DNA of 35,445 nt from a virus, in the IMG/VR virus record IMGVR_UViG_3300042485_002443, positions 1 through 35,445 of that record. One strand, 5' to 3'. Both the position numbers and the translations under genes were made by a program. The notes under the pieces were generated by a model. That model saw only the letters and a list, made by a program, of their open reading frames with translations, had not been told where the DNA came from and ran no database searches. Within the stretch, counting starts at the first letter, position 1. Every line of letters begins with the position of its first letter. This document shows positions 2,881-35,445 of this stretch, piece by piece.

Positions 2881-3615
2881 TTATAAGAGTTTAAACATGA
2901 TTTTATTATAATATTCGACCGCATATTTTCTCGCAATCTTTACCTTTTCGATTATTTGTTTTTCGATCTCAGTATCACGCTCGTAAGTTATTGTAGTGAT
3001 TCTTAAACATGGATCTAACCCATCCATATTATGCAAATCAAACGATTCATGTCCTCGTAACTCGTCAGGGGTCGTCATTAAACAATATGACACCTCAGCA
3101 CTATCGCAGCCCGTTAACATCATATAACCTCGCATTTGGTATTCATAAGCGATATTGTGTGCTTCGCTTTGGAATATTGGAAAGGTATTTTTCGACCAAC
3201 TGCATTTTACATCGATTATTTTATTGCCATGAATAATATCGGGAGTGCCGCAAATGAAGTCATTTTCATAAAAATTTTTGTTTTTACTGTATTTTTCACC
3301 GTTGAAATCTGAAAGGAATTTAATCGCTTTGTCCTCCATTAAATTTCCTTTATTTACATATTTATTATCGAGAATATTTACATATCCGTAAACAAGCTGT
3401 TTAATAGTTTGTTCAATTGACGAAATTCCTGTTTGTGAAAGTGTAACAGGTGCATCACGTTTTGAGATCAATTCGTCCCTTGTTTCTGCTTGTTTTTCTG
3501 TTAATTTAATTTTAGTTAACAAATCATTTAGATTTTTTTCTTGTGTACTTGTTAAACCTATTTTACCGTTGGCAATGTCGCTCAATGAAGAACAACGAAA
3601 TTTTAAATTTTCCAT
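2881..3615 (-). CDS. PD-(D/E)XK exonuclease (YqaJ/lambda-exonuclease type)
   Basis: The 244-residue protein shows the expected chain of active-site residues: E94 in KGNLMED, D126 in GTPDII, D135-V-K137 in KIIDVKCSW, and Q160 in YEYQMRGYM, the Gln-Tyr helix typical of YqaJ/lambda-exonuclease recombinases. It would resect double-stranded DNA to give 3' overhangs for the ERF annealing protein encoded just upstream. Such paired exonuclease and annealing genes form phage recombination modules. Gene spacing is tight (10 nt from ERF, adjacent to the HEXXH gene). Confidence 0.85.
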   Translation of the reverse strand: MENLKFRCSSLSDIANGKIGLTSTQEKNLNDLLTKIKLTEKQAETRDELISKRDAPVTLSQTGISSIEQTIKQLVYGYVNILDNKYVNKGNLMEDKAIKFLSDFNGEKYSKNKNFYENDFICGTPDIIHGNKIIDVKCSWSKNTFPIFQSEAHNIAYEYQMRGYMMLTGCDSAEVSYCLMTTPDELRGHESFDLHNMDGLDPCLRITTITYERDTEIEKQIIEKVKIARKYAVEYYNKIMFKLL

Positions 3616-6173: not shown

Positions 6174-6207
6174 AATTCCTATTTTTTTATTGTTTGTTTT
6201 TATTTCT

Positions 6208-6249
6208 ATTACAAAGATATAATAATTTTATAATATAACAAGCGTTTTT
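6208..6249. repeat. 42-bp exact repeat carrying a promoter, copy 1
   Basis: Identical to 6564-6605. The repeat contains the complete minus-strand promoter (-33 ACGCTTG and -7 TATCTTTG) and little else, indicating duplication of a promoter unit about 356 bp apart. Confidence 0.9.
6212..6241 (-). promoter_or_regulatory. Early promoter, ACGCTTG / TATCTTTG
   Basis: On the minus strand TTG (6241-6239, within ACGCTTG) and TATCTTTG (6219-6212) are separated by 19 nt, fitting the Bacteroidetes -33/-7 consensus. It precedes the gene starting at 6173 and probably the run of small genes down to 4435. Confidence 0.8.
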
Positions 6250-6270
6250 TTATTTTTTTTTATTTATTTT

Positions 6271-6528: not shown

Positions 6529-6563
6529 AATTTTTAGTTTTAAATTTGTTTGTTTGTTTTGAT

Positions 6564-6605
6564 ATTACAAAGATATAATAATTTTATAATATAACAAGCG
6601 TTTTT
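6564..6605. repeat. 42-bp exact repeat carrying a promoter, copy 2
   Basis: Identical to 6208-6249, with the TGTTTGTTTT stretch upstream (plus-strand sense) also shared. It could serve as a substrate for recombination that deletes the gene at 6271-6528. Confidence 0.9.
6568..6597 (-). promoter_or_regulatory. Early promoter, ACGCTTG / TATCTTTG
   Basis: TTG at 6597-6595 and TATCTTTG at 6575-6568, spacing 19 nt on the minus strand. Drives the gene starting at 6528. Confidence 0.8.
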
Positions 6606-6616
6606 ATAAATTATTT

Positions 6617-6793
6617 TTATTTTATTGAAATTAAATTTTTATTGATATACTCCAAAGGTGCGTACCAGCTCGTTCTAAATTTATTAGATATTTTAAAAAG
6701 TCCTTTTTCAATGTCCTTAACTTGGAAAATTAAAATTTTTCCTTCACTCATTAACTCTAAATTCATTCCTATTTTAATTTCTTCGGCTTTCAT
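6617..6793 (-). CDS. Short hypothetical protein
   Basis: A 58-residue frame begins MKAEEIKIGMNLELM and ends NLISIK. The strand-rich pattern (KILIFQVKDIEKGLFKIS) suggests a small beta-barrel such as an SH3-like fold, similar in flavour to the 55-residue protein at 11119-11286. It lies 12 nt past the stop of the 63-residue gene and is probably cotranscribed with it. Confidence 0.5.
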   Translation of the reverse strand: MKAEEIKIGMNLELMSEGKILIFQVKDIEKGLFKISNKFRTSWYAPLEYINKNLISIK

Positions 6794-7696: not shown

Positions 7697-7931
7697 TATT
7701 TGGAAAGTTTAAATAAATATTTAATTTATCGCCGAAATTAAAACAAAAATAAATGATTTCATAAAGTTGATCGTTCGACATTTCATTGCAGCTTATATTC
7801 GAATCTAAAATTTTTGTTTTGATCCATACATCAAAATCGTTTTTTTCTACGTTTAAATCGTTTTTAACCGCTTTATGTAGGTTCTCTAATAAATACCCCT
7901 TATAAAATTTAATTAACCTTTTATTTGCCAT
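7677..7931 (-). CDS. Small hypothetical protein of the replication module
   Basis: An 84-residue protein (MANKRLIKFYKGYLLEN...) with a basic N terminus and aromatic-rich C-terminal half. It overlaps its upstream neighbour by 19 nt and NinG by 20 nt, so all three are translationally linked. No family recognised; a recombination or replication accessory role is inferred only from the neighbours. Confidence 0.55.
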   Translation of the reverse strand: MANKRLIKFYKGYLLENLHKAVKNDLNVEKNDFDVWIKTKILDSNISCNEMSNDQLYEIIYFCFNFGDKLNIYLNFPNNEFEID

Positions 7932-8665
7932 TTTTCCAATATTGCTCGTTCAACCACTAAATTCGCTAAAATCCTTTCTTCCGAGTATGCGAAATATAAA
8001 AAAGTATTTAAGTTTTGATAATAATTATATAATTTTTTTGATTCCTTTTTTAGTTCTTCGACCTCACCTGAATTAAAATATTTTCTGAATTTCCTGTGAA
8101 TTATATTCGCTTGGAAAATCGTTCCGTTCCATTTTCCAACCTCTAAACTTTCCTTATAAGTTTTAATTGAACTTTCATAGAAATCAATCAAACTTTTTTC
8201 TCCTTCATTTTTTTCGATTTCTTCATTCTCTATTTCTTTGATCTCACAAAGTAACTTTATTTTTATCAAATAAAATTTTTTAATAGGGGCTAATAATTCA
8301 ATTTTAGTAATATTTCGCCAGTCCGTTTTTATTGGATTAAATCGCTCAAAACTATATTCGATGTCTTCGATTGTTATTTCAGGAAAGTCGGCCATGATTT
8401 GTTTTACGACTGAGGTTGTCAATGCCTCCGACATTTGGTTTGATCTAATGCCGAAATAAATATCCGCACAATCGACTATTTTTTCATAAATTTTTACTGC
8501 GAGATCAATTTGATCAGAATAGTTTTTAATTAATTCACCGTTATTTAATTGCTTACAGTCTTTTTTATTTATTTCTATTCCAGTCGAAGAAATTCTATTT
8601 ATCAAAATTTCTTCTAAATTGTTCCTTTGATTCGTTTTGTATATCTGTACGTGATTGTTTTCCAT
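7913..8665 (-). CDS. Putative replication-module protein
   Basis: The protein has 250 residues. The middle section (SEALTTSVVKQIMADFPEI, then SFERFN...TDWRNIT, LLAPIKKFYLIK) has the helical pattern I associate with uncharacterised replication or helicase-loader proteins of Bacteroidetes phages; no Walker motif is present, so it is not itself a DnaC-type ATPase. The only in-frame ATG near the N terminus creates a 71-nt overlap with the upstream gene, long for a phage; a later non-ATG start cannot be excluded. Located between a DUF6291-like gene and NinG. Confidence 0.5.
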   Translation of the reverse strand: MENNHVQIYKTNQRNNLEEILINRISSTGIEINKKDCKQLNNGELIKNYSDQIDLAVKIYEKIVDCADIYFGIRSNQMSEALTTSVVKQIMADFPEITIEDIEYSFERFNPIKTDWRNITKIELLAPIKKFYLIKIKLLCEIKEIENEEIEKNEGEKSLIDFYESSIKTYKESLEVGKWNGTIFQANIIHRKFRKYFNSGEVEELKKESKKLYNYYQNLNTFLYFAYSEERILANLVVERAILEKWQIKG

Positions 8666-9263
8666 TATTCAAGGTTTTAGAGTTGTTAAATTTAGTATTA
8701 TTTTGTAACCATGTTTTTAACCTTCTCGTTATATCATAGGTTTTTTCAAGTTCAAAACGCATTTTGGTTTCTGATTGATTTGATTCCGTCCAATATTCAA
8801 AAAAATCTTTTGCGATAATTACATCAATATTTTCTTTTTTAACTATATCAATCAATCTTTCTTTAAAATAAAATTTTCTTTCATCTAAGGTTTTTTTAAA
8901 TTTTGTTTCTTTTACCAAAAGAACATTATTATTTAGATTTTCATTTTTATTTACATTATCATTATCATTTACATTAGTTAACACTTTGCTTTCGTTTTGC
9001 TTCTCGTTTGCTTCTTCTTTGCTTGTGATTTCTTTTGCTTTTGGTTTCTTTCCGTTCTCAAATCGCCTAATATTTGCATCGAGTTGGGGTTTTATCAAAG
9101 TAAACATTGATCTCGCCACAATGTTTTTAAACTCTACATTCTCAAAATCTAATCCGTAACTAAAAATTGCATCGTAAACCTCGGCTTTAATTTCTGCATC
9201 TAATTCTTTTAAACATTCGTAGAATGATCTGTAAAAGATCATAGAATCTCTTTTATTTTCCAT
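8595..9263 (-). CDS. DUF6291-like replication protein
   Basis: The N-terminal 75 residues (FYRSFYECLKELDAEIK, AIFSYGLDF, FTLIKPQLDANIRRFENGKK) match the DUF6291 type found at the start of phage replication modules. An Asn-rich linker (NDNDNVNKNENLNNN) follows, then a helical C-terminal domain with YWTESNQ and RRLKTWLQNN, resembling the DNA-binding end of phage replication initiators. The 222-residue product is a likely initiator or helicase loader. It is the first gene after a promoter at 9365-9393 and a highly structured leader, suggesting that replication onset is controlled there. Confidence 0.65.
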   Translation of the reverse strand: MENKRDSMIFYRSFYECLKELDAEIKAEVYDAIFSYGLDFENVEFKNIVARSMFTLIKPQLDANIRRFENGKKPKAKEITSKEEANEKQNESKVLTNVNDNDNVNKNENLNNNVLLVKETKFKKTLDERKFYFKERLIDIVKKENIDVIIAKDFFEYWTESNQSETKMRFELEKTYDITRRLKTWLQNNTKFNNSKTLNNGKQSRTDIQNESKEQFRRNFDK

Positions 9264-9279
9264 ATAAATAAGTATAAAA

Positions 9280-9356
9280 AAAAGCCATTTAAAACAGGCG
9301 CTTGGACGAACCTATTATAAATGACTTTTAAAAAAATTTCTTTGAAGTGTCCAAGC
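9280..9356 (-). ncRNA. Structured 5' leader: pseudoknot/attenuator candidate
   Basis: In the minus-strand RNA, stem S1 pairs GCUUGGAC (9356-9349) with GUCCAAGC (9307-9300), 8 bp with no mismatch. Stem S2 pairs 9329-9318 with 9291-9280, 12 bp including one G-U. The stems interleave in H-type pseudoknot order, with loops of about 19, 10 and 8 nt. S2 is followed by a U tract (to 9276), so alone it would act as a terminator with a 26-nt loop. The inferred start site (about 9357) lies next to S1, and the first ATG is at 9263. Confidence 0.6.
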
Positions 9357-9364
9357 TTCTCGTA

Positions 9365-9393
9365 CAAATATAATAATAATTTTGTAATAACAA
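9365..9393 (-). promoter_or_regulatory. Promoter of the replication operon
   Basis: TTG (9393-9391) and TATATTTG (9372-9365) are 18 nt apart on the minus strand, a good Bacteroidetes match. It lies just past the stop of the gene at 9401 and directly ahead of the structured leader. Confidence 0.75.
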
Positions 9394-10884: not shown

Positions 10885-10926
10885 GATCTTTTTTTTTAAA
10901 TTTTATTTGTTTTTCTTATCTGTTAC

Positions 10927-10955
10927 AAATATATAACATATTTATTACATGACAA
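10927..10955 (-). promoter_or_regulatory. Early promoter, ACGCTTG / TATATTTG
   Basis: TTG (10955-10953, in ACGCTTG) and TATATTTG (10934-10927) are 18 nt apart on the minus strand. It precedes the gene starting at 10884. Confidence 0.8.
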
Positions 10956-10974
10956 GCGTTTTTTTATTTTTTTT

Positions 10975-11106
10975 TTATTTTTTTTTTAAATAGATGTTTA
11001 TTTCTTTTAAAATTTGGAGTTCTTCTTTTGAAATTACCATTTTAAAAAGTATTGATTTTTGAATTTTTAATATTTCAGAATCTGAATAAAGTTGTTCTAT
11101 TGGCAT
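10975..11106 (-). CDS. Very short hypothetical protein
   Basis: A 43-residue frame (MPIEQLYSDSEIL...) has an AUAGAAAUU leader next to its ATG. It is helical and lysine-rich at the end, where a poly-A tract encodes the last residues and stop. It ends close to the promoter at 10955. The leader is the main argument that it is translated. Confidence 0.4.
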   Translation of the reverse strand: MPIEQLYSDSEILKIQKSILFKMVISKEELQILKEINIYLKKK

Positions 11107-11560: not shown

Positions 11561-11601
11561 AATTTCTATTTTTTTAATTTTGTTTTGCCTTATTGACATT
11601 A

Positions 11602-11631
11602 CAAAGATATAACAACTTTGTAACATTGCAA
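11602..11631 (-). promoter_or_regulatory. Early promoter, ACGCTTG / TATCTTTG
   Basis: TTG (11631-11629, in ACGCTTG) and TATCTTTG (11609-11602) are 19 nt apart on the minus strand. It is the first promoter after the late-region terminator and opens the early region. Confidence 0.8.
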
Positions 11632-11670
11632 GCGTTTTGATGAATTATTTTTAAAAAAAAGCAAAAAAAA

Positions 11671-31343: not shown

Positions 31344-32558
31344 ATGAACTTAAACTTTTGGGACGCTTTTTTTGGTAGGTATGAAAATACTTCAAAGAGA
31401 TATATTGATCAATTCTCGCCAAATGTAACCGCTGGGAATAGATATATCAACGAATACTTTGGTAAAAAAAGTGCCGTTTGGATTGATACAAGTAAAGCTT
31501 TCCAGCATTATATCGAAATTCCTGAATTAAGAACAGTTGTAAATAGGAAAGCAAAAATGATCAGTTCTGGTATTCCTTGTCTATATAATGACAAAGGCGA
31601 ACAGATCACCGAACATTGGGTTTTAGATTTGATTAAGAATCCTAATCCGACTCAGTGTTGGGACGAGGTTATCTATTCAATGGCTGTAAACGATGCACTT
31701 TATTCGACAGCTTTTTTATACGCTCCAAAAAGATCCTTTGGAATAGTTAATCTTTTACTCCCATTAGCATCGCATAAAATGCAGATTAATACAAGTGGAC
31801 GAACTTTAAAACAGATGGACGCAGGCGGTTTAATTGATTCTTATGTTTATAATTACTCGGACGAAGCCCCTCAAAAATTGAAATTTGAAGAGGTCATAAT
31901 GCTACAAACGACCGACGGAATGAATCTTTTAAATCCAGTTTCTATTATTGATTCACTTAAATTCCCTTTATCAAATATAAGAGCCCAATATAATAAACGA
32001 AATGTCCTTCTCGAAAACATGGGGGCGATTGGTATCCTTTCAGCTAAGAAGTCGGATATAGGGGGCGCACTACCCGTAACACCCGAAGAGAAACGAAAGA
32101 TACAACAAGACTGGTATAATCGCTCTAAAGACGAGGTATTGATCACAGAAACCGAACTTGAATGGCATCCAATGTCGTACCCTACTAAAGATTTGATGTT
32201 ATTTGAAGAACTAACAGCCGATAAATTAGCAGTTATCGACGCTTTTGGATTAAATTATTATGTTTTTTCAAATGAAAAAGGATCAACTTTTTCAAATGTG
32301 AGGGACGGTATTAGAATGGCATATACCGACACAATCATTCCTGAAACAGATAAAATTTATGATAATCTTACCGAACAACTTGGACTCGATAAAGAAGGTT
32401 TACGATTGAAAGCGCACTTTGATCACATTCCAGTTCTTCAAAAAGATATGTTGGAAAGTAGTCAAGCATTAAACTCGAGAGCCGACGCCTTGAATAAAAT
32501 TGTTTTGGCGGGGGTTGTATTAAGTGATGACGAAAAACGTGCCTTATTAGATATATGA
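31344..32558 (+). CDS. Portal protein (HK97 family), on the opposite strand
   Basis: The 404-residue protein matches the phage portal family (PF04860 type): N-terminal YIEIPELRTVVNRKAKMIS, the LDLIKNPNPTQ motif near residues 93-103, and the C-terminal region with NEKGSTFSNVRDG and the RLKAHFDHIPVLQKD crown or clip part. The portal ring is the packaging vertex and docks the terminase. It is the only gene on the plus strand, flanked by the protease start (41 nt away) and by the Gp88-like gene whose stop lies 1 nt beyond its own. It ends MLESSQALNSRADALNKIV...LLDI. Confidence 0.9.
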   Translation: MNLNFWDAFFGRYENTSKRYIDQFSPNVTAGNRYINEYFGKKSAVWIDTSKAFQHYIEIPELRTVVNRKAKMISSGIPCLYNDKGEQITEHWVLDLIKNPNPTQCWDEVIYSMAVNDALYSTAFLYAPKRSFGIVNLLLPLASHKMQINTSGRTLKQMDAGGLIDSYVYNYSDEAPQKLKFEEVIMLQTTDGMNLLNPVSIIDSLKFPLSNIRAQYNKRNVLLENMGAIGILSAKKSDIGGALPVTPEEKRKIQQDWYNRSKDEVLITETELEWHPMSYPTKDLMLFEELTADKLAVIDAFGLNYYVFSNEKGSTFSNVRDGIRMAYTDTIIPETDKIYDNLTEQLGLDKEGLRLKAHFDHIPVLQKDMLESSQALNSRADALNKIVLAGVVLSDDEKRALLDI

Positions 32559-35125: not shown

Positions 35126-35445
35126 TTATTTTATTTTTCTTTCATTAGTGAATTTGCCGTCCTCTTTGTAAGTATTCCATGCAATATTCGAAACATCAAT
35201 ACTTTTTATTAATTTAGGATATAGGTATCGGCTTTTAATGTGATGGTGCAACCTACCGCCATTTTTTTCTTGCTTTTCTGCATGGATTGCCGAAGGGTAT
35301 TGAATAACACAAACTAACGATTTATTTAAAAGTTTACATTCATTGTATAGATCAGTTAACCCCCCTTTTGATTTTGCTGACGGAGTTTGTTTTAAAAATA
35401 AGCCGTCACCTAATGACCCCATAAATAAACCTTCATTCATTATTC
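35126..35445 (-). CDS. GT-A glycosyltransferase-like protein, C-terminal part (gene begins at 710)
   Basis: This holds the last 107 residues of the 300-residue protein described at 1-710. The frame continues without a break through the joined ends. An ATG at 35440 is internal (Met198), not a start. The segment includes GGLTDLYNECKLLNKS, PSAIHAEKQ and GGRLHHHI, the latter rich in histidines and typical of the family's C-terminal end. The stop lies 21 nt before the TerS start, so the enzyme is likely made with the packaging genes. Confidence 0.65.
   Translation of the reverse strand, partial: IMNEGLFMGSLGDGLFLKQTPSAKSKGGLTDLYNECKLLNKSLVCVIQYPSAIHAEKQEKNGGRLHHHIKSRYLYPKLIKSIDVSNIAWNTYKEDGKFTNERKIK
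35319..35445. repeat. Direct repeat of the window ends, right copy
   Basis: Identical to bases 1-127, see that entry. All coordinates from 35319 on duplicate the beginning of the window. Confidence 0.95.

Follow-up and report, generated by a model that had tools for sequence, protein, structure and literature searches.

The replication operon of the phage studied here is headed by a structured RNA leader in which two hairpins carry complementary loops, and this leader belongs to a conserved RNA family that we regard, with near certainty, as real. Judged from its sequence and that of its relatives, the leader most likely works most like an attenuator. The analysis started from the whole of IMG/VR record IMGVR_UViG_3300042485_002443, a stretch of 35,445 bases (the window) that encodes TerL, portal, Erf, exonuclease, NinG and ParB-like genes. 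Its two 127-base ends are identical (positions 1-127 and 35319-35445) and the record is therefore probably a complete genome; the identical ends could represent a direct terminal repeat or the assembly overlap of a circular map. A portal-like gene (31344-32558; PHROG portal, E 1e-21) is on the plus strand, opposite to TerL and almost all of the remaining genes, which occupy the minus strand. Searches confined to this genome for a tyrosine integrase (PF00589) or a serine recombinase (PF00239) returned no match.

Read along the minus strand, on which all of its features lie, the leader runs in the order promoter, 5' hairpin (H1), linker, second hairpin (H2, with an inner stem), U8 tract and ATG at 9263. 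This ATG starts the first gene past the leader, a DUF6291 gene (8595..9263, minus strand; 222 aa, PF19808 E 2e-17) that opens the replication/recombination operon. The -7 promoter element TATATTTG (9365..9372; TAtaTTTG) fits TAnnTTTG, the -7 consensus of Bacteroidetes sigma factors (PMC7366714), and in Flavobacterium promoters the -7 part alone has been confirmed from RNA-seq (PMC7366714); a possible -33 element (TTTG/TTG) can be seen at ~9388-9393. The predicted transcription start, ~9360, is at the foot of H1, GAAG(CUUGGACA)CUUC (9344..9359), a hairpin present in the minimum free energy (MFE) fold with a 4-bp stem of GAAG (9359-9356) and CUUC (9347-9344). Seven nucleotides of K5, the 5' strand of the kissing helix (GCUUGGAC, 9349..9356), lie within the H1 loop. 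The linker AAAGAAAUUUUUUU (9330..9343), the best conserved unpaired stretch, with a family consensus of approximately AAAGAAAUUAUU, leads into H2, which spans 9329-9280 overall and ends 16 nt before the DUF6291 ATG. Fold and family covariation both define its outer stem S2, with 5' arm AAAAGUCAUUUA (9318..9329) and 3' arm UAAAUGGCUUUU (9280..9291), and the MFE fold contains its inner stem S3, in which AAUAGGU (9310..9316) pairs with GCCUGUU (9299-9293; 3' arm 9293..9299). The apical loop of H2 holds K3, the 3' strand of the kissing helix (GUCCAAGC, 9300..9307), and the U8 tract (9276..9283) gives H2 an end like that of an intrinsic terminator. Folding of the leader gives -23 kcal/mol, a stability matched by 1 of 200 shuffles (z = -3.7), and the kissing duplex has an energy of -12.3 kcal/mol in this phage, compared with a mean over leaders of -10.8 kcal/mol.

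A sequence-only reading of this region had described an H-type pseudoknot or attenuator formed by two interleaved stems, S1 and S2, next to an inferred start site. Both stems hold in every base: GCUUGGAC (9356-9349) with GUCCAAGC (9307-9300) gives 8/8 Watson-Crick pairs and AAAAGUCAUUUA (9329-9318) with UAAAUGGCUUUU (9291-9280) gives 12/12 pairs including one G-U. The two stems interleave, S2 runs into the U8 tract (9283-9276) ahead of the ATG at 9263, and the TAtaTTTG promoter at 9372-9365, which puts the start at ~9360, agrees with a start beside S1. The proposed topology stands only in part. Two interleaved helices are found in this phage and in its homologues, and H1 and S3 were the parts that had been missed: since H1 encloses K5, and S3 places K3 in the apical loop of H2, the structure is one of two hairpins with complementary loops. 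The loop-loop complementarity amounts to 7 nt, or to 8 when the closing base is included, which is the earlier S1. Loop pairing with a single-stranded flank, as in a bare H-type pseudoknot, is not what is seen, because both interleaving strands lie in hairpin loops, K5 being enclosed by the H1 stem.

The same layout, in different letters, lies directly before the DUF6291 homologue of Flavobacterium phage 11b (S1 CGGGCAGG/CCUGCCCG; S2 AAAAAGCUCAUCA/UGAUGGGCAUUUU; H1 GUUAUUA(UUCGGGCAGGUC)UAAUAAC), and the unpaired stretch CAAAGAAAUUUUU is common to both phages. In L088 and L089, the closest relatives of this phage, the leader precedes a different replication gene. Both also have a cytosine-methyltransferase-like gene (L088 986-2107, L089 3105-3413), absent from the window, that separates the leader from the 116-aa gene upstream. 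A descriptor demanding promoter, S1 and S2 recovered L273, L087, L055 and the phages hattifnatt9-1 and snusmum9-1, and in every leader that it found, S1 has its 5' strand inside the loop of a small hairpin of its own. The annotated helicase start of hattifnatt9-1 (L331 2990) and snusmum9-1 (L332 2990) falls within the leader hairpin, and the ATG at 3026 is likely to be the start in both. Five leaders, aligned with MAFFT without use of structure, served to build a covariance model (R1) that holds S2 pairs only; 5 pairs in this alignment show two-sided change. Run over 43 viral and phage records, R1 returned about a dozen new sites, and nearly all of these also had H1 and the kissing complementarity, both of which are absent from the model. 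The presence of these unmodelled features in R1 matches is the main independent validation of the family.

A second model (R2), built from 20 rows, was applied to 153 replication-gene loci fetched by protein similarity, some of them duplicates; it gave 67 matches in 73 loci and 47 in 80 loci, counts that include the duplicates and in which the weakest matches are false. On whole records of cultured phages, R2 matched 11b, morran9-1, Cellulophaga phi19:1 (kiss GUACGAC/GUCGUAC) and phi10:1, found three leader copies each in hattifnatt and snusmum, and matched Nekkels_1 (kiss AUUGGAA/UUCCAAU, read by eye) and FCL-2 (kiss CAUCCAC/GUGGAUG) weakly. As a control, matches in 84 bacterial loci sharing the promoter and linker letters peaked at 30.8 bits, and covariance-model matches below ~31 bits are therefore unsafe on score alone. 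Five matches of 25-29 bits (L460_185, L466_943, L452_883, L469_444 and L545_416) have neither H1 nor kiss, look like ordinary promoter-terminator pairs and were rejected. Letter-based searches yielded little: blastn of the leader region against phage records gave no match, protein scans for close DUF6291 relatives gave few, a linker-pattern scan of viral contigs returned mostly chance matches, with only L273 both new and real, and a pattern scan of genome contigs gave 84 matches, none of them real. A descriptor of H1, H2 and kiss lacking the promoter was discarded as unspecific, shuffled sequence scoring alike, which is why the promoter, the covariance models and cross-pairing controls were used instead. 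The R2 run over 296 Flavobacteriales genomes, in which only 12 candidates per genome were scored, is uninformative on prophages.

The resulting set comprises about 100 leaders of ~85-110 nt, 82 of them non-redundant. In 51 of the 82, the leader's own loops are perfectly complementary over 8 nt or more, against 4.3 expected from cross-pairing with other leaders, and an own-loop complementarity score of at least 10 is reached by 50 leaders against 1.1 from cross-pairing. H1 has at least 5 bp in 60 of 75 homologues (21.3 in a chimera control), and the inner stem of H2 has at least 2 bp in 68 of 75. Across 48 distinct rows of S2, 94% of cells are paired and two-sided change occurs at 12 of the 12 modelled pairs; the covariation score is 0.735, compared with 0.238 +/- 0.018 for shuffles and at most 0.228 for slid versions, and because the S2 alignment was fitted to the structure, the slid control weighs more than the 94% of paired cells. 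G-U pairs are common in S2 and fit RNA of this strand only. Covariation and conservation of the stems in relatives, the check proposed along with the sequence-only reading, are thus strong, both stems being kept despite different letters.

Almost all homologous leaders begin with the 8-mer TATATTTG or something close to it, and H1 mostly begins 4-6 nt past this -7 element, which makes the foot of H1 the probable transcription start. At the end of S2, at least 6 of 9 bases are T in 66 of 73 homologues, T making up 77% of these nine bases versus 33% across the leader. The ATG of an ORF of at least 35 aa follows within 53 nt of H2 in all of the leaders examined (72/72); the first ATG commonly lies 5-30 nt past H2, and 41-53 nt past it in a second leader group. 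By a crude length estimate, the linker would reach far enough for H1, kiss and full H2 to form jointly in 62 of 71 leaders, and it falls short in 9 of 71. Linker and helix do not lengthen together (r = -0.41), a correlation that speaks neither for nor against cis stacking because a longer S2 shortens the linker by definition. As candidates for a ligand-binding core of the riboswitch type, the only conserved unpaired letters are those of the linker consensus and, in 20 of 73 leaders (~8 if independent), an AGUA strand 5' and a GAA strand 3' of the inner H2 stem. The AGUA/GAA pair, which resembles a bulged-G (sarcin-ricin) motif, is carried by L431, L445, L567, L469, L606 and ~15 more. An extra small hairpin occurs in the linker between H1 and H2 of L435 and L606.

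The proteins encoded downstream belong to unrelated families, namely DUF6291, Lin1244_N, BT4734/PriCT primase, helicases, ERF, a weak ParB_N and HNH endonucleases, and PHROG matches among them include replication initiators, DnaD-like helicase loaders and primosomal proteins. The common factor is the replication module and not any one gene. In many relatives leader and replication gene are separated by an ORF of 60-90 aa. One family of ~70-aa ORFs (..ICLDKxTAxxLSKELRKQI..) lies right after the leader in L430, L432, L436, L420 and others, and one member searched against PHROGs gave no match. In the window, DUF6291 is followed by a conserved 250-aa protein without confident family assignment (7913-8665, minus strand; ~85% identity in L089). 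The kissing leader is single-copy in this genome, despite several other TAnnTTTG promoters there, and an ordinary terminator (hairpin and U8) is found at 11694-11671. A repeated early-promoter module at 6182-6263, 6538-6619, 10896-10977 and 11572-11653 (minus strand), where the kissing leader is absent, has an extended conserved AAAACGCTTG block ~20 nt before TAnnTTTG, which is perhaps the mark of a phage activator or a phage-modified promoter.

With somewhat better than even confidence, we consider the element to be a cis-acting leader RNA that attenuates transcription of the replication operon by means of its kissing loops. A stable hairpin followed by a U tract, the hallmark of an intrinsic terminator, is present (12-bp S2 and U8), and it lies between promoter and first codon, as in an attenuator. 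Transcription would start at the foot of H1, which would fold first and display the K5 loop; once the polymerase had copied the linker and the first half of H2, the emerging K3 loop could pair with K5; transcription of the rest of H2 and of the U tract would then complete an intrinsic terminator directly ahead of the first gene. The kissing helix, which links the 5' end of the RNA with the loop of the terminator-like hairpin, would set the frequency of termination, in either direction, and hence hold the replication genes at a set level or time. The sequences establish the promoter motif, H1, H2, the U tract, the complementarity of the loops with its covariation, and the position ahead of replication genes of unrelated families; from them we infer that RNA is made from the predicted start, that H2 would terminate it, and that the kiss would form within the RNA and alter read-through. 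Being the first part made, H1 can capture K3 while the 3' arm of H2 has yet to be transcribed, and because joint folding needs a near-stretched linker, the kiss could plausibly act as a switch by competing with the foot of H2. The mutually exclusive choice between pseudoknot and terminator that had originally been suggested finds no sign: the two pairings use different strands and can be drawn together, albeit with a tight linker. The second pairing is conserved, yet it is compatible with H2 on paper, and no alternative antiterminator helix was identified. A few members have a poor U tract (L088 UUUUGUCG, L433 UUUAAC), and strong termination may therefore not be universal. HNH genes directly follow some copies (L055, LMO phages, L564), which counts against an attenuator of replication genes, as these copies do not directly precede them. 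A U.A-U triplex involving the linker was considered and dropped by reasoning only, the A strand being on the wrong side.

No part of the leader changes faster than the kiss, even though a change there has to be matched on the partner strand. Among 93 kiss sequences 62 are distinct, with compensation on both sides, and in 21 recently diverged pairs (at most 12% difference over the 50 nt upstream) positions differ at 28% in the kiss, 15% in the rest of the leader and 4.4% upstream; these pairs share members and are not independent, so that p = 1e-4 is indicative only. Leaders L567 and L559 have 0/50 differences upstream and 6/14 in the kiss (GTAACGG vs GTCGTGG, partners matching) and are otherwise almost identical; the kisses of snusmum and hattifnatt (GTGGAACG vs GTGAGACG) likewise have matching partners, and where a genome has several copies, their kisses differ. 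In incompatibility and immunity RNAs the paired letters evolve faster than their surroundings, and fast-changing paired letters therefore make recognition of the leader's own kind in trans conceivable. The terminated leader might accumulate as a small self-recognizing RNA whose loops, serving as specificity tags like those of plasmid copy-control RNAs or phage P4 immunity, pair with nascent leaders of other genome copies or of co-infecting relatives, with the effect of adjusting replication to copy number or of shutting off the relative. This reading, for which the two cases just named are the best, would explain why the kiss is hypervariable yet compensated, why it outpaces both the rest of the leader and the upstream region in recent pairs, and why copies in one genome differ; we consider it possible but unlikely, since pairing in cis is expected usually to beat pairing in trans and differing kisses per genome are expected by chance at such diversity. 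Recombination of leaders, often together with the gene, also lifts their divergence above that upstream, and part of the divergence clearly appears to come from such exchange, because the gene behind the leader often differs too. Moreover, the window shows no sign of lysogeny (PF00589 and PF00239 without match), which leaves classical immunity without an obvious role. That the terminated leader pairs with nascent leaders of the same type through the hypervariable loops, ignoring other loop letters, and thereby counts or recognizes its own genomes and sets replication, is in our judgment rather unlikely; if true, it would mean incompatibility-like RNA control in phages without a sign of lysogeny, with loop letters selected to diverge.

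The position of the first ATG, commonly 5-30 nt past H2, would also suit an element of translation or mRNA stability, in which folding of the 5' end shields the message while H2, close to the start codon, tunes initiation without terminating transcription, perhaps with a phage or host protein bound as in the T4 gene 32 pseudoknot. Initiation in Flavobacteriia is described as sensitive to mRNA structure and as proceeding without Shine-Dalgarno pairing (PMC6847099), which favors such a role, as do the bulged-G-like AGUA/GAA strands flanking the inner stem in 20 of 73 leaders, a typical motif of protein or tertiary contacts. It would not need a U tract, however, and the one observed is far above leader composition; the second leader group, with its first ATG 41-53 nt away, fits it poorly as well, and we deem this role quite unlikely. 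That each RNA carries both complementary loops, on a linker that is tight and by the crude estimate too short in 9 of 71 leaders, could instead point to intermolecular assembly into dimers or rings, like phi29 pRNA or GOLLD/ROOL, but most linkers reach, the RNA is the 5' leader of an mRNA and no packaging-type gene linkage is seen, which makes assembly very improbable. Equally improbable is a non-RNA explanation, either an operator or origin at the DNA level, its inverted repeats lying next to the replication gene, or chance in AT-rich DNA. Inverted repeats near promoters can be operators, but almost any letter in loops and stems can be exchanged provided that pairing is kept, which argues against a fixed operator; G-U pairs are abundant in the RNA sense, the order from promoter through H1, linker, H2 and U tract to ATG is strict, and none of the control loci with the same promoter and linker letters exceeded 30.8 bits. 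A chance arrangement is already refuted.

The leader gives a handle on how replication is timed or limited in phages that are among the least studied for regulation. A strongly covarying RNA stands before the replication modules of many Bacteroidota phages, ahead of mutually unrelated replication proteins, and its fast-changing yet paired loops point to a specificity system and raise the question of whether an RNA tells self from relative in co-infection. Cultured carriers are available in Cellulophaga phages phi10:1 and phi19:1 and in Flavobacterium phages 11b, FCL-2 and LMO.

The leader is apparently undescribed. Searches of Rfam 15 (4227 families, gathering cut-off) gave 0 matches across 19 sources, and looser searches gave sub-threshold matches only, in agreement with the initial view of a structured leader ahead of replication genes that matches no described family; the match of phage 11b to TEG147 (26.3 bits, cut-off 56.1) was set aside as a chance hairpin match. 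Such a phage leader was not found described in the open literature, an absence that is weak evidence given the many subscription papers outside its scope. STAXI (RF01728), a tandem array of 2-3 pseudoknots with UUCG loops in Enterobacteriales, is likewise a pseudoknotted RNA near genes for DNA-handling proteins (PMC2864571), but the phage leader is single rather than in tandem array, occurs in Bacteroidota phages and has no Rfam match. The phi29 pRNA and GOLLD/ROOL share with it the association with phages and complementary loops but are far larger folds that form multimers and are not mRNA leaders (PMC12286853). Like the H-type pseudoknots of T4 gene 32, SAM-II and preQ1, it opens a message with interleaved helices; unlike them, it has both strands of the interleaving helix in hairpin loops and no evident conserved ligand pocket, its stem and loop letters being almost free. 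In the attenuators of the pT181 and pIP501 replication genes, the loop of a leader hairpin pairs with a separate antisense RNA. They resemble the phage leader in having a hairpin and U tract before a replication gene, in loop pairing, which is proposed to set read-through, and in loop letters that act as specificity tags, whereas the phage leader has both pairing partners in one RNA, and no antisense promoter was noticed there. The immunity (CI) RNA of satellite phage P4, a processed trans RNA linked to lysogeny, likewise comes from a replication-operon leader with complementary segments and involves premature termination, which for the phage leader is predicted; the latter differs in consisting of two compact kissing hairpins with no sign of processing, and an integrase was not found in the window. 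The leader is a new structural variant of leader-RNA control, with an evolutionary signature that merits attention.
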